Source: Halorarum halophilum
GTDB taxonomy: Archaea; Halobacteriota; Halobacteria; Halobacteriales; Haloferacaceae
Reading direction: 5' to 3'
DNA length: 64,000 nt
Assembly: GCF_013401515.1 (NCBI RefSeq)
Contig: NZ_CP058531.1
Coordinates: forward strand, 62,001 to 126,000
A program made the translations under genes and the position numbers. Positions 5,978 through 19,201 of the stretch are shown here, piece after piece. Under the pieces are notes generated by a model, which worked only from the letters and a program-made list of their open reading frames with translations, made no database searches and was not told the DNA's origin. Within the stretch, counting starts at the first letter, position 1. The number at the start of each line of letters is the position of its first letter.

Positions 5978-6743
5978 GCGGCCCGTCTTTCAGCCGATTC
6001 CGCTGTCTTGACTGTAAACAACGGATGTTCCTCGGCTGTTTTTGATCGATGAAGATAGGCAGTCCTTTGGGTGACTGAGTCTACGAGAGTCTCTTTAAGA
6101 GTCATCCATTCGCAATTGCATATTCTGTTTTATAGTGGGACTTAATACAACCACGAGACACAGAATAATTGGGTGCATCTGGTGCCCGTGCGCTCATAAC
6201 GGCTCGAAGTAGTCGAGGAGCACCTGCTGACGTGGACGAGCCGATTGCAGTTCAATGGGTCACCTGACGAACAGGGGGAAACACGAGGGCGTCGGTTCAT
6301 TGTCGTGCCAGAGGTCATCTGCACGGTGGTCGGACCGTTTCCACGACCCCCCGACGTCCTATTGTCACGCGCTATCCGCTGGAGCGCGTGCGATAAACCG
6401 AACCTTCGATCTGCGACACTATCTCCACTAACGAGGACCTGAACAAGAAGCTCAGGCCGGCTAGCGGGTTCTTATGATTCTCGCTTCTCGACATGAAACG
6501 AAGGGGTGTGAACCTTCCATTCCCGGAGTGTCTGACGCTCCCCCAGATGTCTCTCTAGCTCGGTGTCTGCCTAATAAGATGCGAGATCCTCCCCGCCCTC
6601 GTCGAGGTGCCTATCAGCTGGGTAAAGTCAATAATTCAATCCGAACAGTGATATCACGTACTTGCTCTGTTTTGAGCCACCCCGATTCACCTCTTGGTGA
6701 AGATTCTCCATCTAAGCTCGGGTATTGATATGGTTGATGGCGA
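5978..6743. other. Gene-free stretch, probably decayed DNA
   Basis: No open frame here has protein-like composition on either strand. The AT content rises around 6110-6150. A short open stretch near 6245-6440 is too weak to call. It may be worn mobile-element DNA, but I see no transposase motif or terminal repeats. Confidence 0.4.
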
Positions 6744-7787
6744 TTACCACCAGTGATCCCGATCATCGTCCTCGGGGTCGTCAAACGGAGGCGGGAGATC
6801 GTCGACCGTTTCGGCCCCGAAGAGATACCCAAACCAGTAGCCGACGTGCCATGCGACGTGGTCTTCACCAACATCTTTCACAGTAATTTCCCCACTCGTG
6901 TAATACTCCAGCGCCGGGTCGGTGTCAGTATCCACACCCCATCGTCTACCTGAAGAGTTGAACCCGCCACCCTCGTCTAGCCGAACTATGACATGTGCCG
7001 CCGACTCATTGTCGGTCAGGGTCAGAGATGTGTTCGGTTGGAGGTTTGAGTCCTTGTCAGTCTCGTAGTAGTCAATGGCATGTTGGACTTCCTCTCTGTA
7101 ATCCTCTCTGTTGTGGGGGCTCAGGTCGCCCTCATCGACGTATATGAACAGTTCGTTGACCAGCCACGGGCTGGGGCGGTCCAGAGCGTCCGGTTGGCTG
7201 ACGTACGTTGTAGATGTCTCGGCCTCCATGAAATCGAACTGATCGGTGTCCGAGTGGTCGTACCCGAGCGTGTGGCCGAATTCGTGTTTTAGAATCTTAA
7301 CAGTCGTCTTCCTCGTAAACCCTCGTTCAACCTCAACATAGGTGACGCCGTTGACCGTTGTTCCTGGCCGAATGTAATCAGCACAGCCCACGGTGTGTCC
7401 ATCCTCGTTCTCGCAGTATCCGATATCATCTACGAACCGCACCGTGATGTCTGAGTACGGGCCGTCGACAATTGTGTAATTGAGCTCTCTCCCCGTCGAT
7501 TGATTCTCCCAATATCGAACCGCCTCACGAACCATCCCTTCATGGTCAGCTCGAGAGTCTTCTGGTGCGAGGATTTCTACGCGGATGGGGTTGGCCTGCC
7601 ATGCATTATTTGGAGGTACGGGTGTCGGCGTAGGGCTTGCAGTGGGAGATGGCGATGGACTCTGTGTTGGGCTGTCGGTGGGCGAATCCGATACCGTTGA
7701 CGTCGGCTGCTCAGTTGGTGAAGCCGTGCCACCAGATGCACACCCTGAGATTACGAGGACAATGGCGATGATGACCGCCTTCTTCAT
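6744..7787 (-). CDS. Lipoprotein zinc metalloprotease (metzincin-like)
   Basis: This 347-residue protein is probably a membrane-anchored exported peptidase. It starts MKKAVIIAIVLVISGC, a signal peptide ending in a lipobox with Cys16 as lipid anchor. A Ser/Pro/Thr linker (about residues 20-58) follows, typical of haloarchaeal lipoproteins. The catalytic motif HEFGHTLGYDH (His168, His172, His178) is the extended HExxHxxGxxH metzincin zinc site, and Met187 in 'DFMEA' is a plausible Met-turn. The C-terminal half (about 200-347) repeats a predicted alpha/beta pattern of the N-terminal half but has no second zinc site. Cys125 and Cys135 may pair. Gene order offers no clue to the substrate. Confidence 0.85.
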   Translation of the reverse strand: MKKAVIIAIVLVISGCASGGTASPTEQPTSTVSDSPTDSPTQSPSPSPTASPTPTPVPPNNAWQANPIRVEILAPEDSRADHEGMVREAVRYWENQSTGRELNYTIVDGPYSDITVRFVDDIGYCENEDGHTVGCADYIRPGTTVNGVTYVEVERGFTRKTTVKILKHEFGHTLGYDHSDTDQFDFMEAETSTTYVSQPDALDRPSPWLVNELFIYVDEGDLSPHNREDYREEVQHAIDYYETDKDSNLQPNTSLTLTDNESAAHVIVRLDEGGGFNSSGRRWGVDTDTDPALEYYTSGEITVKDVGEDHVAWHVGYWFGYLFGAETVDDLPPPFDDPEDDDRDHWW

Positions 7788-8873: not shown

Positions 8874-9072
8874 TGATATTCACGTGGCTACGGGTGGAGT
8901 GGGGGGGGGATTCAGGACAAATGCACTAAATATCATATCCTAACACCTGTCCAGCATCACTTCGCACTATTTCCTAAAGCCGTGATACTGGTTATCTATG
9001 GCCTCATTCTGGACGAACAAGAAGAGCCTGCCATATCGTCCAAATCCTAAAGTTGGTAATCGGAGGAATGAA

Positions 9073-9084
9073 TATTTATATAAA
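9073..9084 (+). promoter_or_regulatory. TATA box of the signal-peptidase operon
   Basis: ATTTATATAAAC is centred about 27 bp before the expected transcription start. It places that start at or next to the ATG at 9106, the usual leaderless arrangement in haloarchaea. Confidence 0.65.
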
Positions 9085-9105
9085 CGAGTCTTTTTCTTGA
9101 ATGCA

Positions 9106-9660
9106 ATGTCAACAAACGTTAGGATCGGTTTGGTAGCTGTCATGCTTATCGTCGCATCAGGGGCGTTCGCAGCAAGTGCGTACACGAGCGGGAGTGTTGA
9201 ACGGTCGGCCAACGTCAACGTTGTGAACGACGATACGGGTCTCATCGCGCTTCAAGACGGAACCTCTGGTGACCTCGTGTTCCAGAACGCGACCGGTGCA
9301 CTGGCAATCGACTTCACGGCTGGGGGTGCAGGCGGTGCGAACACCGCGGCCCACTACGAGCTCGGTGACCCGGCCAACGCGAACACGTCGTACGCCTTCA
9401 ACCTGACCAACCTCGACGCTGAAAGTCACGACTTCACGGTCGCCTACAGTGGCTCTGACGGACAGGATACTGATGCGAACATCGAGTTCCAGGTCTACGA
9501 CAGCACTGGAACTCTCGTCGACACCGCTAACGAAGAAGGCACTTCGGCTAGCCTCTCGGGCGTCGCGTCCGGTGAGACGCTCTACGTCGTCATTGTCGTG
9601 GATACCCACGGCCTCGACAGTACGGCCGATCTCTCCGGGACCCTGACGATCTCGGCCTAA
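9106..9660 (+). CDS. Exported SipW-substrate-like protein (DUF1102/TasA-like)
   Basis: This is a 184-residue exported beta-rich protein. The start at 9106 (MSTNVRIGLVAVMLIVASGA) is fixed by a TATA box 27 bp upstream and by the signal peptide, which ends near Ala-Ser-Ala-Tyr. The mature part is Gly/Thr/Asp-rich with an immunoglobulin-like pattern. Proteins of this kind are coded directly upstream of SipW-type signal peptidases in haloarchaea and are their presumed substrates, as TasA is in Bacillus. It is the first gene of a four-gene operon (9106-12226) and is probably a surface or filament protein. Confidence 0.7.
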   Translation: MSTNVRIGLVAVMLIVASGAFAASAYTSGSVERSANVNVVNDDTGLIALQDGTSGDLVFQNATGALAIDFTAGGAGGANTAAHYELGDPANANTSYAFNLTNLDAESHDFTVAYSGSDGQDTDANIEFQVYDSTGTLVDTANEEGTSASLSGVASGETLYVVIVVDTHGLDSTADLSGTLTISA

Positions 9661-9684
9661 TCGGCACCACGAATTCGAAAAACC

Positions 9685-10695
9685 TTGCTTGGACGTATCG
9701 CGCTCATCATCGTCGTTTTTGCAGCCGTTGCAGTCACGACGCCGGCGTCTCCGGTCCAGGTCTCATACGTTTATTCGGATAGCATGGAACCCACGATCGG
9801 CCAGAACGACGGCTACCTCGTGGTTCCGGAAGGGAATATCGAACAGCGGGATATCATCGTGTTCTGGTCGTCCGAACGGGGAGAACCTGTCACTCACCGG
9901 GTCGTTGGTCGCTCGAGTGCTGGACTGCTAACGCAGGGCGACAACAATGACATTACGGACCAGGCTGCCGGCTATTCGTATGTCCAACGCGAGGAAATCG
10001 TTGGGACGGTCTTCACGATCCACGGTGAGCCGGTCACAATCCCTGGCCTGGGAATCCTCGTCTCGCTAATGGGCACACATCGTCTCGTCGTACTCGGTGC
10101 TGCTGGGCTCCTCATTGCTGGCAGCATGCTATACAACTCAGGAACTCACCACTCCCGCCCCGGTCGAGCAGTGGTAAGGGTGAACGATGTGATGCATCCG
10201 TTGTTTGCCGTAGCACTCCTCACAGGGATCGTGTTCTTGCTGATCGGGGCGAATGGCCACGAACTGACGTACGTGGCCGTGGACGGTACAGTGGGTGGGC
10301 CAAACACGCTCACGGTAGGTGAAGCTACGAACGAGACGGTTTTGATAACTGCTCCATCCATCCCATTCACGCATCGCATGGTGAGTACAGATGGGATGAC
10401 GATTACGAGCCAAAGCGAGAACGCTTCGACCGTGACGGCGCAGGTGTACATCCCCGGACCGACAGAGCGTGGAGCCTACACGACGAGCATCCGTGTCTGT
10501 CGGTATCCGGCCGTTCTTCCCGAACAGACCGTCCGGACTCTCCATGCTGTTCACCCCACGCTTGCAGCATGCATCACGATGGGGCTTCTGTTCGCCCCGT
10601 TTTTCGTACTGTATGTACTCGTTCTTGACGGCCAGCAACCACTCCGGACGTCGCGCTCGCGTTGGCGATCTCGCCTGGGGGGGAGGAATCAATGA
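9685..10695 (+). CDS. Signal peptidase I, archaeal/SipW (S26B) type
   Basis: This membrane serine protease should remove signal peptides outside the cytoplasmic membrane. An N-terminal hydrophobic anchor is followed by SDSMEPT with catalytic Ser33, and by VTHRVVG with His71. His in place of the bacterial Lys is typical of the ER/archaeal S26B class. A conserved QGDNND box follows. Two more hydrophobic segments (about 112-133 and 152-171) and a C-terminal anchor before an Arg-rich tail make it longer (336 residues) than minimal SipW. The only in-frame start is TTG at 9685, 24 bp after the upstream stop. It overlaps the next gene by ATGA, so coupling is likely. Confidence 0.85.
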   Translation: MLGRIALIIVVFAAVAVTTPASPVQVSYVYSDSMEPTIGQNDGYLVVPEGNIEQRDIIVFWSSERGEPVTHRVVGRSSAGLLTQGDNNDITDQAAGYSYVQREEIVGTVFTIHGEPVTIPGLGILVSLMGTHRLVVLGAAGLLIAGSMLYNSGTHHSRPGRAVVRVNDVMHPLFAVALLTGIVFLLIGANGHELTYVAVDGTVGGPNTLTVGEATNETVLITAPSIPFTHRMVSTDGMTITSQSENASTVTAQVYIPGPTERGAYTTSIRVCRYPAVLPEQTVRTLHAVHPTLAACITMGLLFAPFFVLYVLVLDGQQPLRTSRSRWRSRLGGRNQ

Positions 10696-11198
10696 GGCCA
10701 CGCCGATCACGCCGACGAGGCACGAAAGCCACGCTCCCGGCATTAGTTCTACTTTCGAGTGGGATACTCGTTGTCGCCGTCGTATTCGGGGCTGGAGGGA
10801 TGGCAACTGCCTCCTTCACCACGGCAGACGCAACACGGAACTCGGCGGTCGACGTAACCTCCGACGAGCTGAGTGCGCATTCCCTCGATGTCGCATCGTC
10901 AGTTTACATCAATTCGACGGGCCCTCTCGTGAACGTGACCAATCGGCTCGGTCAGGACGTGACGATCACGGTCGCCCTTCGCAGTGACTCACAGCACATC
11001 GGCGATCTTGTCGTAGACGGAACGGTAGTCGGAAATGCGACTTCGTTTACCCTCACGAAAGGCGCGACACGAACAGTGGATATTGAGATTCCTGATGATA
11101 GTTCCCTCTCCGACGAAACAGTGTACTTCTCTGTGGATGCGTCGGCACCGGGACTTGAAGTGACAGCGCCGGATAGGAGGGCTTCAGTAAACGAATGA
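10692..11198 (+). CDS. Second exported SipW-substrate-like protein
   Basis: This is a 168-residue protein whose ATG overlaps the stop of the signal peptidase gene (ATGA). An Arg-rich N-terminus (MRPRRSRRRG) precedes a hydrophobic signal of about 25 residues that ends in an Ala/Thr-rich site. A beta-sandwich-like domain with DUF1102/TasA-type features follows (YINSTGPLVNVTNRLGQDVTI). It lies between the peptidase and a DUF5305-type gene, and ATGA overlaps on both sides mark a tightly coupled operon. It is probably processed by the adjacent peptidase. Confidence 0.7.
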   Translation: MRPRRSRRRGTKATLPALVLLSSGILVVAVVFGAGGMATASFTTADATRNSAVDVTSDELSAHSLDVASSVYINSTGPLVNVTNRLGQDVTITVALRSDSQHIGDLVVDGTVVGNATSFTLTKGATRTVDIEIPDDSSLSDETVYFSVDASAPGLEVTAPDRRASVNE

Positions 11199-12226
11199 CC
11201 AGCTTTCCTGGAGTTGCACGGGCGAAGCTCTTCATTTCCGAGTACGGTCCTGTACTCGCGGTCTGTCTCGCCATTATTGGTGTCATCACCATTGGGTGGG
11301 CAGGTTGGATATACACACATCCGCCGACAACTACCGTCACAGACAACACGAACAAGCAAACCATTCAATCTACCCTCCAGACGAGCGCCGTCGTCACCGG
11401 GGATAGCGCCCTCTATCGACAGGGTGATCGGGTAGAAAACCAGCCCGTGTATTTCCTGAGTGCGACTCCGGACGTTGTACTCACTGTACAGACGAATGTC
11501 CCCGATGAGCAGACGGTTCAGGTAGACCAGCGGATCGAACTAGTGATGCAGGCCTCCCACAGTGGAGAGATTTTCTGGAACCGGTCTCGCGTTCTTGAAC
11601 AAGAAGTGTCGACGACATCGGATGGGACAGTAACAACGATGACTGAGCTCAATATCACGCAACTCAGGAGCCAAATCGCGCCAGTCCAAGCGGAGATTGG
11701 CTCGGCAGGTTCACTCACAATCCTCGTCAGCGTGACGGCATCGTATGAGACGAATCACTATTCGGGAACGCTAAATGACCAAACTCCGCTTAGGCTATCC
11801 GAGCGCACATACACGATTGACCAACTTACACTCGAAACGATAGAGAGTACACCAAAGACCCGGGAAATCGTCGTGCCATCGCGAGATGCATCTGCGTATA
11901 CCCTTCTCGCAGGGATTGGAGTGAGTGCTCTTCTCGGTGCGGGAACAATCGCTGGCCTCTACCGCCGCAGGGAGCAATGGGGGGCTGTCAGGGACCAGCT
12001 CCATCAGAACCGATATGCTGAGTGGATATCCGAAGGGCGGCTCTCGGCGGAACATGGTGATCACCATGTACCCGTAGAGTCCCTCGAAAATCTCGTCGAT
12101 ATAGGTATCGACCAGAGTAAACGTGTTATCTATGACAGCGAGAGGGAGGTATACGCTGTTCTTGATGGGACATTTGTCTATCACTATGGGGGAGAGAGCA
12201 TCTGGAATAGGAACGAAGAAGAATGA
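11195..12226 (+). CDS. DUF5305-type membrane protein
   Basis: This 343-residue protein has an N-terminal transmembrane segment (about 22-43, VCLAIIGVITIGWAGWIY) and a long extracellular beta-rich domain. A second transmembrane segment (about 240-260) and a cytoplasmic tail of about 80 residues follow. Phrases such as 'QPVYFLSATPDVVLTV' and its position after a SipW-type peptidase match the DUF5305 family, known only as a companion of such peptidases. Its role is unknown; it could be an anchor or assembly factor for the exported proteins. It is the last gene of the operon. Confidence 0.75.
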   Translation: MTSFPGVARAKLFISEYGPVLAVCLAIIGVITIGWAGWIYTHPPTTTVTDNTNKQTIQSTLQTSAVVTGDSALYRQGDRVENQPVYFLSATPDVVLTVQTNVPDEQTVQVDQRIELVMQASHSGEIFWNRSRVLEQEVSTTSDGTVTTMTELNITQLRSQIAPVQAEIGSAGSLTILVSVTASYETNHYSGTLNDQTPLRLSERTYTIDQLTLETIESTPKTREIVVPSRDASAYTLLAGIGVSALLGAGTIAGLYRRREQWGAVRDQLHQNRYAEWISEGRLSAEHGDHHVPVESLENLVDIGIDQSKRVIYDSEREVYAVLDGTFVYHYGGESIWNRNEEE

Positions 12227-12330: not shown

Positions 12331-12358
12331 GCTTGGTTTTCTTATGAACATACAACTC

Positions 12359-13159
12359 ATGGCGGATACTAACCCCCCCTACGCACGACTAGTTGAAAAT
12401 GCTCCAATTGGCGTCTTTCAGGTGATCGTCGACACTGAACACCTCGACGAGGTTTCTCGTGATCGAGAGCATTTGTACGTCAACGAGACCCTCGCGAATA
12501 TCCTCTCGTTCGACTCTCGTGATCACTTCCACTCGGAGGTGGACTCCATAGAGTATGAGGACCCTCGTGACAGGGAAACATTGCAAGCGCAGGTACAAGA
12601 GACGGGTGACGTGGAATCCTTCGAGACGACGCTCGTCGATAACGACGGTGAACCGGTAGATGTGCTTATCTCAGGGACACTTCAGGAGGAGGAATTTACG
12701 GGATACGTCACCGACATCTCCGAACGAAAGCAGCTCGAGCGGAAAGCCCAGAAACAGGCCGAGGCAATCCTCGAACAGTCGATGCCGATCGTCCAAATCT
12801 GGGAAGGAATTACCCTCGCCACCGTAGTGGGAACCCTAGACACTAACCGGGCCCAACAGCTCACGGAAGAGTTGCTCACTGAACTTACGGAAACACAGTC
12901 TGCTGTCGCATTGGTCGATATCACCGGCGTTCCGAACGTGGATACAGCAACAGCTCAGCACCTAATCGACACCGTCAAAGCAGTGTCGCTCCTGGGAAGC
13001 GAAGTCATCATCACAGGTATCAACCCGGACATCGCACAGACGTTGGTCCAGTTAGGAATTACCATGGACGAGATTCAAACCAAGTCGTCATTGAGTAAAG
13101 GGTTAGAGCGTGGATTACACATTATTCAGGACGACGTCCAGACGACTGGAGACTCCTAG
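12359..13159 (+). CDS. RsbR-like PAS-STAS stressosome sensor
   Basis: This protein has about 266 residues (start chosen from the TATA spacing; ATG 12344 adds five). Residues 5-125 form a PAS domain (ENAPIGVFQVIV ... GYVTDISERKQ). A short linker helix leads to a C-terminal STAS domain. The two STAS phosphosites of Bacillus RsbR are both present in matching context: Thr196 in NVDTATAQHL and Thr228 in GINPDIAQTLVQLGI. In Bacillus, RsbR and RsbS form the stressosome shell, which holds the kinase RsbT until stress. Here PAS replaces the globin-like sensor, so the input may be a small ligand, redox or light. It is the first gene of a six-gene operon. Confidence 0.88.
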   Translation: MADTNPPYARLVENAPIGVFQVIVDTEHLDEVSRDREHLYVNETLANILSFDSRDHFHSEVDSIEYEDPRDRETLQAQVQETGDVESFETTLVDNDGEPVDVLISGTLQEEEFTGYVTDISERKQLERKAQKQAEAILEQSMPIVQIWEGITLATVVGTLDTNRAQQLTEELLTELTETQSAVALVDITGVPNVDTATAQHLIDTVKAVSLLGSEVIITGINPDIAQTLVQLGITMDEIQTKSSLSKGLERGLHIIQDDVQTTGDS

Positions 13160-13170
13160 TGAGGGCCTCC

Positions 13171-13545
13171 ATGAACGATGATACACATCTCTCCCTTATG
13201 CGGGTTGGAGAGAATATGATTGCTTCGCTCCCACCTCATCCGTCAGATAGTACGATTGATGAGCTCCAAGAGCGTGTCCTCACCCGTCTCAACCAAACGG
13301 ACGCTGAGCGGATTAACGGGGTCATCCTCGATGTCGAATCCGTTCAAACGGTCGATTCATTCTTTGCTCGGACGATTGTCGAGACTGCGAAAATGGTTGA
13401 ACTGATGGGCGTCAGGCCGGTCCTTGTCGGCATCAGTCCGCCAATCGCCATCACGGCGACTGAACTTGGGTTTGACCTCGGGAATATTGACACGGCGCTC
13501 AACACGGATACCGCATTAGACATGCTCAGCGATGACATCCAGTGA
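13171..13545 (+). CDS. RsbS-like single-domain STAS protein
   Basis: This 124-residue protein consists of a STAS domain only. The start at ATG 13171 is preferred to GTG 13159. The phosphosite matches Bacillus RsbS: Ser63 in QTVDSFFARTI, as in RsbS 'VDSF'. The family role is the scaffold partner of RsbR that binds RsbT and is phosphorylated by it. It lies 11 bp after the RsbR-like gene and overlaps the RsbT-like gene by 14 bp, the same order (R-S-T) as in bacterial stressosome operons. Confidence 0.85.
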   Translation: MNDDTHLSLMRVGENMIASLPPHPSDSTIDELQERVLTRLNQTDAERINGVILDVESVQTVDSFFARTIVETAKMVELMGVRPVLVGISPPIAITATELGFDLGNIDTALNTDTALDMLSDDIQ

Positions 13546-13954
13546 CCCCATGACGACCGAGGAGGGAACACTCACCATCAGCACCGAGACTGACATCGTC
13601 ACTGCGCGGACGACGATTCGCGAGGTTGCCACCGACGTTGGATTCGGGCTAACTGACACCACTAGAATCGTGACAGCAGTATCCGAACTCGCACGGAATG
13701 TCTATCTCTATGCTGATTCCGGGACGATGCACTGGCGGACAGAAACCAACCGTAGTCGACAATTACTTGAAATAGTTTTCGACGATGACGGCCCTGGTAT
13801 CGCAGATGTCGAACGAGCACTTGAAGAGGGATATTCGACTGCAAACGGCATGGGGCACGGACTCTCCGGGACGCAGAAATTGATGGATGAGTTCGAGATA
13901 GAAACGAGTTCGGAGACCGGAACGACCGTGACAGTCCACAAGTACTTGTCATGA
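13532..13954 (+). CDS. RsbT-like serine/threonine kinase (switch protein)
   Basis: This is a GHKL ATPase-fold kinase of about 134-140 residues (ATG 13532 or 13550). The N box reads AVSELARNVYLYA. The G1/G2 region reads DDDGPGIADVERALEEGYST followed by NGMGHGLSGTQKLMDEFEI, almost the RsbT pattern of Bacillus. In the known system it phosphorylates RsbR and RsbS, leaves the stressosome, and then activates a partner. Here no sigma-factor phosphatase RsbU follows, so the downstream target must differ. Confidence 0.87.
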   Translation: MTSSDPMTTEEGTLTISTETDIVTARTTIREVATDVGFGLTDTTRIVTAVSELARNVYLYADSGTMHWRTETNRSRQLLEIVFDDDGPGIADVERALEEGYSTANGMGHGLSGTQKLMDEFEIETSSETGTTVTVHKYLS

Positions 13955-13964
13955 GGGCTCGCAG

Positions 13965-14987
13965 ATGACGCTGCAAGACGAAGAGACGATTGCGGTCGGC
14001 GGGGAAGCTGACATCATCCTCGCTGGGAGTCGGACAAAAGCCCTACTCTCGAAGCTTAAATTCGAGAACTCCGCCATCGAGGAGATCGTGCTTGTGGTCC
14101 ACGAACTGGCCTCCAATATCGTCAAACATGCGAATGAGGGCACAATCACCCTCATCCCCCAAAATTTAGATGAGCGGACCGGGATCGAGATCCGTGCATC
14201 TGATTCGGGGCCCGGAATCGACGATGTGGACAAAGCAGTCGTTGACGGCTATTCGACAGCCGACAGTCTTGGAGGTGGGCTAGGCGCAGTCCATCGGCTG
14301 ATGGATGACGTCGTCATCAACTCAAGGGAAGAGCAAAATACTGGAGTCCAGATCGTGGCGACGTGGTGGAATAGGGCGACTTCGCCCGATCAATCCACTC
14401 CTCCACTCGAAGTCGGTGCAGCGACTCGTGCCATGCCAGGGCACGAACTGAACGGTGACGCCTTCCTCATCGAGCATGAAACGACCCAAACACTGGTCGG
14501 GGTAATCGATGGCCTCGGCCACGGACAGTTAGCGCATCAGGCCTCACGTACGGCAAAACAATACGTTCGGGCGCATTCTACCCAATCATTGGCCGACTTA
14601 TTCGCCGGTGTCGAGCAGGCCTGTCACAAGTCGCGCGGCGTCGTGATGCTGCTCGCTCGTTTCGATTGGGATACCGATCAGGTCACGCTCGGGAGCGTCG
14701 GTAACATTTCTATCCGCGTCTGCAATTCATCAACTACCCCGTATCTCGTACCCAAGCGTGGTGTCCTCGGTGGCAACGCGCCAATGCCCACAATCCAAGA
14801 ATGGAACTGGGACCCAGCATCCGTTATAGTAGTGCATTCAGATGGGCTCAGATCGGATTGGCAATGTGAGGAATTCGAATTCGGTGACGATTGCTCGGTG
14901 ACCGACACCGCAGCAGAATTACTCCAGTCGCTCTCGACTCAGGACGATGACGCAACAGTGCTTGTTGTCTCGAGGGCCGATCGATGA
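13965..14987 (+). CDS. GHKL ATPase-PP2C phosphatase fusion (RsbX-like)
   Basis: This 340-residue two-domain protein combines two switch activities. Residues 1-130 are a second GHKL ATPase/kinase domain (VVHELASNIVKHANEG; SDSGPGIDDVDKAVVDGYST; LGGGLGAVHRLMDD), like RsbT/RsbW. Residues 155-338 are a PP2C/SpoIIE-type phosphatase (HELNGDAFLIEHE; GVIDGLGHGQLAHQASRTAK; LGSVGNISIRV; VVHSDGLRSDW), the RsbX family, which resets the stressosome by dephosphorylating RsbR and RsbS. The DGLGHG metal-binding Asp is intact. It starts 10 bp after the RsbT-like gene and overlaps the kinase gene downstream by ATGA. Confidence 0.87.
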   Translation: MTLQDEETIAVGGEADIILAGSRTKALLSKLKFENSAIEEIVLVVHELASNIVKHANEGTITLIPQNLDERTGIEIRASDSGPGIDDVDKAVVDGYSTADSLGGGLGAVHRLMDDVVINSREEQNTGVQIVATWWNRATSPDQSTPPLEVGAATRAMPGHELNGDAFLIEHETTQTLVGVIDGLGHGQLAHQASRTAKQYVRAHSTQSLADLFAGVEQACHKSRGVVMLLARFDWDTDQVTLGSVGNISIRVCNSSTTPYLVPKRGVLGGNAPMPTIQEWNWDPASVIVVHSDGLRSDWQCEEFEFGDDCSVTDTAAELLQSLSTQDDDATVLVVSRADR

Positions 14988-16177
14988 CTGGAACGCCCTC
15001 GGAAGACAAGGGGGTGACAAAGGAAGAGCTTCAGCAGGAACTCCGACGAGCACGGTCACAGATCCGGACCCTAGAGTCGGAACTGACGGAGACAAACGAA
15101 GGGATGGTTGCCCTGACGCTCGAACTTGAGCACGCAAAAGAACGGTACCAGACGATCTTTGAGGAGAGCACCGACGGTATCCTCTTGATCGACCCGGACC
15201 AGAATTCAATTCATGAGGCCAATCCGCAGGCATGTGACCTCCTCGGCTACGACCATGATACACTCGTGACCCTCTCGCCGGCGGAGATCTTCCCCGACGA
15301 GACCAACCGAACAGACACGTTTGCAGAAGTCGTCGTCCAAGGCTGGGCCGATGGATTCACCTGCCGGACGAAAAACGGCCGAAAAACGGATGTCGACATC
15401 TCGGCCTCTATCATCACACTGGACGACCGGTCGCTTCTGCTGGCGTCGTTACGTGACATCACGGAGCGTAAACGGCGCGAACAACGCCTCCAAGTTCTCT
15501 CGCGGATTTTCCGCCACAACCTCCGCAATGACGGTAACGTCATCCAGGGTCATGCGGACATCCTTTGCGACTCACTCTCTGATCAAAATTTGGAAGCAAG
15601 TGCGCTCCAGATCCGTGATACGATTGATGAGATATTGCAGCTGAGTAGTAAGGTTCGACGCGTTCAAGATATTCTCGATCGGAACCGTGTTCATCGGAGT
15701 CCCCTCAGCGAACTACTTACGTCTCACTACGAGTGGGTCGCGCAAACGCATCCGACGGCCACGCTGACGATTGATTTGCCCGAGCAGGATCTGTTCGTCG
15801 GTCGTCGGCTTAGCGTGGCCATTGCAGAAGCGGTCGAGAACGCGGCGAAACATGCGGAGTCGGAGCCAACTATCGAGATTACCGGGGAGGTTGACGGTGA
15901 CTCTGAACGGATTTGGATCGAAATCAGGGATGACGGCCCCGGCATCCCCGAACAGGAACTCCAAGTTATGCAGAGTGGGAGCGAAACACCACTTACTCAT
16001 GGAAGTGGGATTGGACTCTGGTTAATCTACTGGGTAATCGATAGTCTCGGGGGTGAGGTAACAGTTCAGAGCGATACGTCCGGCGGTACTCTCATTACAA
16101 TGATCGTCCCCTTAGAGACAGAACAGACGGACTCAGAACACGATAACCGCCCCTCCACACCCACAACAAATGACTAG
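14984..16177 (+). CDS. PAS-domain histidine kinase
   Basis: This 397-residue cytosolic sensor kinase has no transmembrane segment. A coiled coil (residues about 12-55, ELQQELRRARSQIRTLESEL) precedes a PAS domain (56-163). The H box is SRIFRHNLRND with phospho-acceptor His178. The HATPase domain has an N box (AIAEAVENAAKHA) and G boxes (IRDDGPGIPEQEL, HGSGIGLWLIYWV). The FRHNLRN box is typical of haloarchaeal kinases. Translational overlap with the phosphatase fusion upstream and the response regulator downstream puts it in the stressosome operon. It could take the place of the RsbU/sigma-B branch. Confidence 0.88.
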   Translation: MTGTPSEDKGVTKEELQQELRRARSQIRTLESELTETNEGMVALTLELEHAKERYQTIFEESTDGILLIDPDQNSIHEANPQACDLLGYDHDTLVTLSPAEIFPDETNRTDTFAEVVVQGWADGFTCRTKNGRKTDVDISASIITLDDRSLLLASLRDITERKRREQRLQVLSRIFRHNLRNDGNVIQGHADILCDSLSDQNLEASALQIRDTIDEILQLSSKVRRVQDILDRNRVHRSPLSELLTSHYEWVAQTHPTATLTIDLPEQDLFVGRRLSVAIAEAVENAAKHAESEPTIEITGEVDGDSERIWIEIRDDGPGIPEQELQVMQSGSETPLTHGSGIGLWLIYWVIDSLGGEVTVQSDTSGGTLITMIVPLETEQTDSEHDNRPSTPTTND

Positions 16178-16757
16178 CAACGACAGGTCCGCGACAGTCC
16201 TCATAGTTGAGGATGAGCAGTCAATCGCCGATTTGTACGCACTCTCCATCGTCTCCAACTGCACAGTTCTCACAGCATACGACGGAACAGAGGCACTGAA
16301 CAAGATGAATCCAAAAGTTGATGTTGTACTCCTTGATCGACGGATGCCTGGCCTTTCAGGTGAAGATGTACTTCAGTCCATCCGAGAGGAAGGATACAAC
16401 TGTCGCGTTGCGATGGTAACAGCCGTCACCCCCGATGTGGATATCCTTGAGATGGAGATCGATGACTATCTTACGAAACCCGTCGATAGGTCGGAGTTGA
16501 ACGAAACTGTCAGTCAACTATTTTCACTGAACGCCTACGATGAGCTCTTCCAGGAGTATTACCAACACTTCTCGAAGAAGGCGGCTTTGGAGGCGGAAAG
16601 ACCAATCATCGATATCGAAGAGGATGAGGAGTACACTCGACTCACGAACCGACTAACCGAGCTCGAGACCAAGCTCGAAGCAAAACAGAAGACAGCCTCA
16701 GGGTCGGGGTTCTGTAATCTTCTCGACCGGCGCCGGTCACGCGCCGATGGCGACTGA
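16170..16757 (+). CDS. Response regulator with HalX output domain
   Basis: This is a 195-residue protein. The receiver domain (8-118) has acidic pocket Glu14-Asp15, phospho-acceptor Asp56 in VVLLDRRMPG, switch Thr84 and Lys103. The remainder (about 125-185) is a helical HalX domain, found almost only in haloarchaea after receivers, ending in a coiled coil (LTNRLTELETKLEAKQ). No DNA-binding motif is visible, so the output may be protein-protein. Its ATG lies inside the kinase gene (8-bp overlap), which makes it the kinase's likely partner and the last gene of the operon. Confidence 0.88.
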   Translation: MTSNDRSATVLIVEDEQSIADLYALSIVSNCTVLTAYDGTEALNKMNPKVDVVLLDRRMPGLSGEDVLQSIREEGYNCRVAMVTAVTPDVDILEMEIDDYLTKPVDRSELNETVSQLFSLNAYDELFQEYYQHFSKKAALEAERPIIDIEEDEEYTRLTNRLTELETKLEAKQKTASGSGFCNLLDRRRSRADGD

Positions 16758-16876
16758 CGAATTCTGAGCAACGGATTGGTACTCGTTATCTGTTCTTCTC
16801 AGCTCCACCTGAAACACTTCAACTTGTCCAGTCCACCTTGAGATAGGAGTCTCCCTGACCCGACTCTCCAATAAGA

Positions 16877-17617
16877 TTACCGGCGTGCTACCCTGCGACT
16901 TGATGGATCTGGAACCTTCACAACACTGCCGCATCCAGTGCATTTCCAAACATAAGATCCCAAGTTGAGAAATCCAATCGTGTCGCCAACACTGAGGTCC
17001 CACCGCAGGTCACATCGTGGGCAAGCATCGGGCCGATGTTTGTTTGCTCCAACCTGTTCTAGGTCAAGATTGAGTCGTTGCTTCGCAATCTCGATTCGTC
17101 GTTTGAGTCTTGCGTACTCGTCACTCCCCTCCAGTTCAGGTGTTGACTTTTCATTCTCGATCGAGATCTTCCGCGAAATGAGCGCAAGGAGTTCCTGTTG
17201 AGTGATATCGGAGTCTGAACGAAGGAGCAGTTCCTCGACCAGTTCCAGTAAATCCTCCCGAGAAATCGGTTTTTCGAGGTACTCGTCAATAGCGAGGTCA
17301 GCAACATCGAAGTCTGGAGCAATCGCAGTCACTAATGCAACTTGGCAGTCGAGTTTTCGATCTTGAATTACACTCAGAAGTTGGTCGCCAGACCATGTTT
17401 CCAATCGTCGGTCAAGTAATGCGACGTCAACCGCTTCGTCAAGTAATTCCAGTGCCTCATCGCCGGTGTAGGCCGTTCTTACAGTATAGATATCTTCAAG
17501 AAATCTCGTATACAGTTCAGCGAGACCCCGTTCGTCTTCAACGAGAAGAACGACTGGCTGATTGGCCTCTTCCTTATGGGTGGTCTCCTCCTCGTTTCCA
17601 CCATTCCCTTTTGACAT
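16877..17617 (-). CDS. Response regulator-HalX-zinc ribbon protein
   Basis: This 246-residue protein is convergent with the stressosome operon. The receiver (about 22-135) has phospho-acceptor Asp69 in VALLDRRLETWSG, a VTAI switch Thr and a Lys in EYLEKPIS. A HalX-type helical region (135-190, DEYARLKRRIEIAKQRLN) follows. The C-terminus adds a zinc ribbon (CPRCDLRWD ... WKCTGCGSVV). The ribbon could bind nucleic acid or a transcription partner, giving this paralogue an output that the operon's own regulator lacks. An AT-rich element near 17650 may be its promoter. Confidence 0.85.
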   Translation of the reverse strand: MSKGNGGNEEETTHKEEANQPVVLLVEDERGLAELYTRFLEDIYTVRTAYTGDEALELLDEAVDVALLDRRLETWSGDQLLSVIQDRKLDCQVALVTAIAPDFDVADLAIDEYLEKPISREDLLELVEELLLRSDSDITQQELLALISRKISIENEKSTPELEGSDEYARLKRRIEIAKQRLNLDLEQVGANKHRPDACPRCDLRWDLSVGDTIGFLNLGSYVWKCTGCGSVVKVPDPSSRRVARR

Positions 17618-17959: not shown

Positions 17960-19201
17960 GTAGTTCAGGTGTTTACGCCAGAAATCGCCGACATATCGAC
18001 CTGCCAACGCTCCAGCCCAGTACCACGCTCCTTGACGTCGACGGCGAGCTCGGCCGCAAGCCACTCACTACGCTTGTCGTCGACAGCGCGGCCAGCTCCC
18101 AACGCGTTTGCCTCGAATTCGAGACACTGGGATGCACCCCGAGTTCAACCGTGCAGATCAGCAGGCGATCGCTGTGAGCGAGGCCGATATCTAAGAGGGT
18201 CGCATCCACATGAGTGACGAAGTGAAGGCTAAGTACGGCCTCGACGAGTACGCTCGTAAGCCCATTGTCTCGAAGCTGGACGACTCCGTCGACGAGAAGA
18301 CCGCTGGACCTAGCACACGTAGCCGCAGACCACCTCGGCGAACCCCTGGACCGCGTCGTCGGCGACTGGCTCAAGGATGCGAGGCGGATCGTAGAGTTGA
18401 GCAACCGAGCCAATGTCCCGACGCCCTAGGGGACGACGATGCAGCTGTACCAGCGCGGCTTCACGCACATCAAGGACCTCCGCCTCGCGGACGTCCACGA
18501 GCTCGATTTCGTGAGCATGTATCCCAACATCATTCGGGAGAACAACGTCTCCCCCGAGACCGTCCGCTGCGGTTGCTGTGGTGAGGACAACGCACGCGAT
18601 ATCGTCCCGGAGTTTGGCTACACTATCTGCCAGGAGGAAGGCTACCTCGGGGATATCCTCGGCCCGCTGATCGACGACCGCGACGCCATGAAGTGGCCAT
18701 GCAGAGGACCGACGACCCGGCGGAACGAGCGAGGCTTGAGGCGCGCTCGTCGGCCATCAAGTGGATTCTCGTCTCGTGTTTCGACTACCAGGGCCACGGG
18801 ATCGTCGACTCCATCTGGGTCACGCCAGCCGCCGACGTCGCCGATAGAGACCGTCGGCCGCTTGTGGAGATCGCCGCCGAGGCCAGCAGCGTGTCTCGAA
18901 GCAAGTCGAGGAGTACCGACAGGAGACGCTCACGGTCTGCGCGCTCCGGCGGATGAAGCGCCAGGGGGCACCGCTTGCTCTTGGACAGACGATTGAGTAC
19001 ACCGTTGTCGACGTCGACGCCCATGGGACCGAGCGCGTTCGTCTCAGCCACGAGCATGCCGACGAGTACGACGTCGACTGGTATCGTGACCAGTGCATCC
19101 GAGCTGCGGTGGGCGTGCTCTCGCCCGCCGGGTACCACGAGTCGGCGATCAAGAACTCCCCCAGGGAAGGCTCAACGCCGTCGATTCAGTCGTATGAATG
19201 A
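17960..19201 (+). pseudogene. DNA polymerase B (family B) pseudogene with deletions
   Basis: Pieces of one archaeal family B polymerase appear in order but in different frames. A front part near 18015-18300 (LLDVDGELGRKPLTTLVVD; YGLDEYARKPIVSKLDD) is followed by motif A (DVHELDFVSMYPNIIRENNV, about 18490-18545) with the zinc cysteines VRCGCC. The frame runs to SCFDYQGH and then jumps straight to HGIVDSIWVTP, the motif C region, so motif B is deleted. A C-terminal piece (YDVDWYRDQCIRAAVGVLSP) ends near 19140. There are several frameshifts and an early stop, so it cannot be functional. It is probably a relic of a plasmid or virus replication module. Confidence 0.8.

Follow-up and report, generated by a model that had tools for sequence, protein, structure and literature searches.

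A complete RSTX stressosome module in the haloarchaeon Halorarum halophilum and a conserved coiled coil as candidate link between GHKL-fused phosphatases and their output proteins

The stretch of DNA analyzed here, hereafter the window, comprises 64,000 nucleotides of the haloarchaeon Halorarum halophilum (contig NZ_CP058531.1, positions 62,001 to 126,000) and carries an operon of the stressosome type followed by a histidine kinase; six co-directional open reading frames (ORFs), overlapping or separated by short gaps, and one convergent ORF were confirmed at 12344-17617 of the window. Its parts are as follows.

12344..13159, + strand: R, an RsbR-like PAS-STAS protein with phospho-acceptors Thr201 and Thr233 (STAS with a weak PAS by Pfam)
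12359, + strand: alternative ATG start of R, from which the same threonines are numbered 196 and 228
13159..13545, + strand: S, an RsbS-like single STAS protein; phospho-acceptor Ser67 from the GTG start, Ser63 from an internal ATG
13532..13954, + strand: T, an RsbT-like GHKL kinase (HATPase_c_2 by Pfam) with SELARN, DDGPGI and GHGLSG boxes
13965..14987, + strand: TX, a GHKL-PP2C fusion (HATPase_c_2 and SpoIIE by Pfam)
14984..16177, + strand: HK, a PAS histidine kinase (PAS and HATPase_c by Pfam) in the order N-terminal coil, PAS, kinase core
15044..15163, + strand: candidate input adapter, a coiled coil at about residues 21-60 of HK with the core ELTETNEGMVALTLELE, conserved, in bacteria as in archaea, in the position right behind a fused TX gene
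16170..16757, + strand: RR, a REC-HalX response regulator, final gene of the co-directional run; its orthologue is adjacent in one other genome, G070
16877..17617, - strand: RR2, a convergent REC-HalX-HalOD2 response regulator with a zinc ribbon, of doubtful membership and not kept beside the module in G070

The closest relatives of R and S in the PDB are Listeria RsbR (E-value 5e-29) and RsbS (6e-17), and the closest sequence relative of TX is the RsbX of Bacillus subtilis (3w40, 4e-13); T matches only SpoIIAB chains by sequence, its identity as RsbT being drawn from the gene order and from boxes that match the T proteins of complete modules. In alignments, the phosphosites of R fall on the VDT and IAQT sites of RsbR and that of S on the DSF site of RsbS, and they are kept in all 14 haloarchaeal modules checked; T likewise has intact N, G1 and G2 boxes, and so are the metal-binding Asp residues of the PP2C domain intact. 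TX consists of an RsbT-like GHKL domain at about residues 5-132 and an RsbX-type PP2C domain at about 146-338. In its AlphaFold2 model (mean pLDDT confidence score of 74, with the GHKL lid poorly resolved) the PP2C half superposes on the Moorella stressosome phosphatase 3zt9 (MtX) and on RsbX 3w40 with target-normalised template modelling (TM) scores of 0.91 and 0.85, respectively. Judged by sequence, this archaeon has in R, S, T and TX all the parts of a stressosome RSTX module. The original prediction, made from the letters of the window alone, is thus borne out in gene content and order (all six co-directional ORFs and the convergent HalX gene having the stated domains by Pfam), in the phosphosites (Thr196 and Thr228 of R from the start at 12359, Ser63 of S from the internal ATG) and in the intact RsbT and PP2C motifs. 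It had also excluded a sigma-B branch, rightly, since the whole genome (4.28 Mb) holds only two STAS domains, both in the operon, leaving neither RsbV nor a sigma-B branch; that output was ruled out. R shares with YtvA and the RsbR paralogues a PAS-type sensor and a STAS domain with two conserved Thr, but a role as a LOV photoreceptor was rejected and R is unlikely to sense blue light in the manner of YtvA, because the flavin-binding cysteine motif of LOV domains is not seen in the PAS sequence; the match of R to the YtvA family, which covers residues 115-251 and lies far under the cut-off, is owed mainly to the STAS part. The window kinase contains no RsbU_N domain (PF08673) by Pfam, and its H box, by reading of the sequence, is RHNLRN, of the haloarchaeal type; no Rfam match was found between 8000 and 22000 of the window.

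With TX as query in 391 Halobacteria genomes and the neighbours of the matches compared, the module was found in 11 genomes (12 loci), R, S and T adjoining TX in every locus. In nine of the 12, TX is followed by a histidine kinase gene (five by Pfam, including the window, and the rest by BLAST to the window kinase); in the genomes G278, G251 and G175 the gene in this position encodes a protein with three GAF domains, BAT and HTH_10 (Pfam run on G278), a Bat-type transcription factor. The kinase is directly followed by a HalX regulator only in the window (G000) and in G070, and the convergent HalX-HalOD2 gene adjoins the module in no other haloarchaeal locus. Of the order R-S-T-X-kinase-HalX, whose conservation in other haloarchaea the original prediction had proposed as a check, R-S-T-(T)X is therefore kept in the 12 loci, whereas HalX stands beside the kinase in only one of the 11 others. 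With three Bat-type HTH_10 proteins in the output position and the second HalX gene non-syntenic, this comparison of neighbours argues against the HalX pair, the output that had been proposed, as a conserved one.

The module is absent from the sampled congener G026, and in Halanaeroarchaeum one copy is carried by a 35 kb plasmid, pHSR-CO. In the phylum of the window 28 of 393 genomes have it, and 23 of these, probably methanogens, do not belong to Halobacteria; TX matched strongly in six of 195 Asgard genomes, in four of which R-S-T-TX is complete. In a tree built from R, S, T and X, all the Halobacterial modules form one clade (ultrafast bootstrap, UFBoot, 100) among bacterial and Asgard modules, and the Asgard modules are scattered over three positions, suggesting repeated transfer. 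No TX relatives turned up in a scan of viral contigs. The patchy spread, together with the location of the window on a 187 kb contig and a fragment of a family-B DNA polymerase nearby (18439-18996), would fit a horizontally acquired island decaying without function in its host; this is highly improbable, since all the ORFs and the catalytic and phospho-acceptor residues are intact, and the ratios of non-synonymous to synonymous substitution rates (dN/dS) are low, at ~0.02-0.18 among the modules of G278, G251 and G175 and, where unsaturated, 0.07-0.2 between the modules of the window and G070. The related modules are under purifying selection.

Stressosome genes have been reported in bacteria and archaea (PMC8942246), and rsbRSTX in some archaeal species, with kinase/receiver outputs in bacteria (Heinz 2022, PMC9237108), so the novelty that had been claimed for the archaeal occurrence falls away. 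Nor is the arrangement as unusual as had been supposed: the order R-S-T-fused TX is found on the megaplasmid MP1 of Deinococcus radiodurans and on plasmids of Phaeobacter and Sphingomonas, the same order and fused phosphatase recur in acidobacterial, verrucomicrobial, methylococcal, chloroflexal and clostridial genomes, and Paraburkholderia plasmids carry the same fused phosphatase, R and S being not annotated in the stretch examined. Because the GHKL-PP2C fusion and the gene order, kinase included, are common in bacteria, they are not archaeal inventions. The minimal rsbRSTX modules of Gram-negative bacteria such as Vibrio vulnificus (PMC9237108) resemble that of the window in uniting all four genes in a single operon, in having no sigma-B branch and in being followed by signalling proteins, including kinase/receiver proteins; they differ in the globin-sensor R of V. 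vulnificus and in a single-domain PP2C RsbX, whereas the window has a PAS-type R, a GHKL-fused RsbX and a kinase with a coil. The operons of D. radiodurans MP1, Phaeobacter and Sphingomonas share the order and the fused phosphatase, and the kinases of D. radiodurans and Sphingomonas also have the same coil; their hosts are bacteria, the kinases of these two carry an extra N-terminal GHKL domain before the coil, and that of Phaeobacter has no detectable coil. What is new here is the coiled-coil start of the output protein and its pairing with the fused TX; the coil, its link with the GHKL-fused RsbX and the Bat-type output were undescribed in the literature searched, most subscription journals lying outside that search.

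The proteins encoded after TX share one short N-terminal segment, though the remainder differs. Its consensus in the output proteins is ELxETNxGxxALxxE, and it reads LESELTETNEGMVALTLELE in the window kinase, LQAELRETNEGLLALTLERE in the Bat-type factor and LNQELQDTNRGVVALYAELE in the D. radiodurans kinase. In the heptad register, 74% of the residues at positions a and d are hydrophobic vs 28% at the other positions; the core contains a polar Thr beside the Asn, and an additional hydrophobic face is formed by V, A and L/M. A DNA pattern for TNEGxxALxxE gave 12 matches, in 12 of the 391 Halobacteria, and a reversed control gave none; seven of the 12 lie in the gene that follows TX directly, four of the other five read Phe for Leu, and one (G375) lies in a locus without a stressosome gene, where by reading it appears antisense to another gene. 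With a longer pattern, 14 matches were obtained in 30 module-bearing genomes or records, at most one in each, 13 directly after TX and the 14th (G412) near a contig start, where a broken assembly would place the coil of the operon. In 151 Terriglobia, all six matches to the coil pattern come after TX. These pattern searches rule out the coil as a common feature of haloarchaeal kinases.

The coil precedes PAS kinases, GAF kinases and the Bat-type factor, and in some loci (L082, L084, L089 and the first kinase of L078) it precedes HisKA and HATPase only, with no other Pfam domain. The kinases of D. radiodurans and Sphingomonas have a GHKL domain ahead of the coil (by Pfam for D. radiodurans), a natural fusion that links both parts in one protein. 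It is conceivable that the pair formed by the kinase and the HalX regulator is merely adjacent to a stressosome that acts on an unlinked target, the kinase sensing through its own PAS domain, and both the presence of that domain and the variation of the gene after TX among haloarchaea, with HalX adjacent in one other genome only, agree with it; this is nevertheless quite unlikely, as the differing outputs have the coil in common, some of them have no other Pfam sensor domain, and with two STAS proteins in the genome a downstream RsbV partner-switch target is absent.

Several further loci bear on the range of proteins that start with the coil. It stands at the N-terminus of the GAF-GAF-GAF-BAT-HTH_10 factor after the stressosome in three haloarchaea (L034:7718-10060, also L035 and L036), and the full module of a Helarchaeota (Asgard) metagenome-assembled genome (MAG) is followed by two histidine kinases, both coil-bearing (L078:7387-9923). 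In a KSB1 bacterium the coil lies ahead of a GGDEF-EAL protein (L073:7390-8850), so the same adapter would appear to serve cyclic-di-GMP outputs as well. In two non-haloarchaeal Halobacteriota (L173:5731-6234 and L175:6138-6572) it is carried by a protein of 144-167 amino acids (aa) with no Pfam match, which by eye resembles the helix bundle of histidine-kinase dimerisation domains; in L173 a gene for a DUF7504/KaiC-like ATPase follows (6282-6842). In Halanaeroarchaeum and G001 (L041-L043) the phosphatase is without the GHKL half, and the giant PAS kinases next to it have a degenerate coil.

The coil and RsbU_N were searched for in 93 loci with hidden Markov models (HMMs), that of RsbU_N being seeded with examples recognized by Pfam. 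Among the loci with fused TX, 47 have the coil, none has RsbU_N and 10 have neither (one truncated); with unfused X, RsbU_N is next door in 25 and elsewhere in the locus in one, nine have neither (one truncated), and a single locus has the coil, L098, in which a frameshift splits a formerly fused gene. The loci of other Halobacteriota, fetched after the coil HMM had been built, behaved as predicted, with the coil in six of six fused and none of eight unfused loci; RsbU_N was recognized by Pfam in four of the unfused outputs, one of these four just under the cut-off. The window belongs with the first group, a GHKL-fused RsbX being followed by an output that starts with the coil. TX is also interrupted in a second acidobacterial MAG besides L098, L080, there by an in-frame stop; both interruptions may stem from faulty assembly or from decay.

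In the activation of RsbU, RsbT causes the flexible linkers of RsbU to form a coiled coil, whose polar core residues keep the resting state loose (PMC12143880). This switch and the RsbU_N outputs (such as Moorella MtG) resemble the present case in having an N-terminal adapter and a coiled-coil linker, swapped among phosphatase, kinase and GGDEF proteins, and differ in that the window has no RsbU_N, its adapter being a short coil and its partner phosphatase GHKL-fused. The reading favoured here, with a probability of about 0.62, is that the operon encodes a fused-TX stressosome of a kind common to bacteria and archaea, which signals through docking of a GHKL protein on the coil of the kinase in a host without a sigma-B branch. 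The PAS domain of R would sense a cytoplasmic signal, and T would phosphorylate R at Thr196/228 and S at Ser63. Either T or the GHKL half of TX would then leave the assembled STAS scaffold and dock on the N-terminal coil of the kinase, zipping or stabilising it and so changing the kinase output; the HalX regulator would be phosphorylated by the kinase, while R and S would be reset by the PP2C half of TX. Sensing by R, phosphorylation by T, reset by the PP2C domain and phosphotransfer to HalX follow established stressosome and two-component biology. Docking is suggested by analogy, because the coil has a polar Thr in its core like the RsbU linkers and sits at the place of RsbU_N, and the GHKL half of TX is favoured as partner because coil and fusion co-occur. 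The coupling of the stressosome to the kinase, first proposed from fusion and overlap of the genes, is in this way supported, the conserved N-terminal coil being better evidence than the overlap, while its extension to the HalX pair as conserved output is not.

Several points weigh against this reading. The T, N, G, A, L and E of the coil were fixed by the search pattern and are thus invariant by construction; that constraint does not extend to positions -10 and -7 (Ile/Leu), +5 and +9. Three Halonotius loci keep the TX fusion and lack the coil, and six other fused loci score coil-negative, among them L072, with a variant coil by eye. A tree of 76 modules has only three changes of the fusion state and seven of the coil state; with so few changes, the contrast of 47 to 25 is mostly one old split and the counts are not independent. 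T remains an alternative to the GHKL half of TX as docking partner, and we know of no proven DNA-binding activity of HalX. Two points are independent of the old split: inside the fused clade, the Halanaeroarchaeum/G001 lineage lost the GHKL fusion and its kinase coil degenerated to TTKGTLQL, and Halonotius lost the coil and retained the fusion.

Signalling might instead be enzymatic, RsbT or the GHKL domain of TX phosphorylating the kinase, with the coil a mere dimerisation linker. Most of the outputs considered by Heinz et al. (PMC9237108) are without RsbU_N, and transient phosphorylation was suggested for them; the invariant Thr of the coil, in a core-like position, could be such a phosphosite. 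An ordinary linker, however, is not expected to be conserved over proteins as different as kinases, a GGDEF-EAL protein and an HTH_10 factor, nor to keep to the position after TX or to exclude RsbU_N, and the Halobacterial lineage without the GHKL fusion has a degenerate coil, all of which makes this alternative unlikely. Docking on the coil, the reading preferred above, can be extended, tentatively and at somewhat less than even odds, to two wirings of stressosomes, in one of which a lone RsbX would accompany RsbU_N outputs, whereas in the other a GHKL-fused RsbX would accompany outputs whose coil docks a GHKL protein, probably TX; the latter scheme would occur in bacteria, haloarchaea, Asgard archaea and other Halobacteriota, on kinases, cyclic-di-GMP enzymes and an archaeal DNA-binding factor. 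The coil would thereby offer a signal route from stressosomes without RsbU_N outputs, as a specific and mutable candidate docking site in two domains of life, and the archaeal modules, which lack the sigma-B branch, a clean system in which to test it. Its presence on a Bat-type HTH_10 factor in three haloarchaea would tie the stressosome directly to archaeal transcription; in these loci (L034-L036), a DNA-binding protein may be its immediate target.

Outside the operon, the genes upstream (8998-12226 of the window) encode a weakly matching TafE-like protein, an archaeal-type signal peptidase I with a TTG start and a DUF5305 protein, a set that looks like a surface-protein export cassette. On the other side, an ORF of 185 aa at 18439-18996 weakly matches a family-B DNA polymerase domain, the full-length gene being absent, which suggests a decayed element adjoining the operon.

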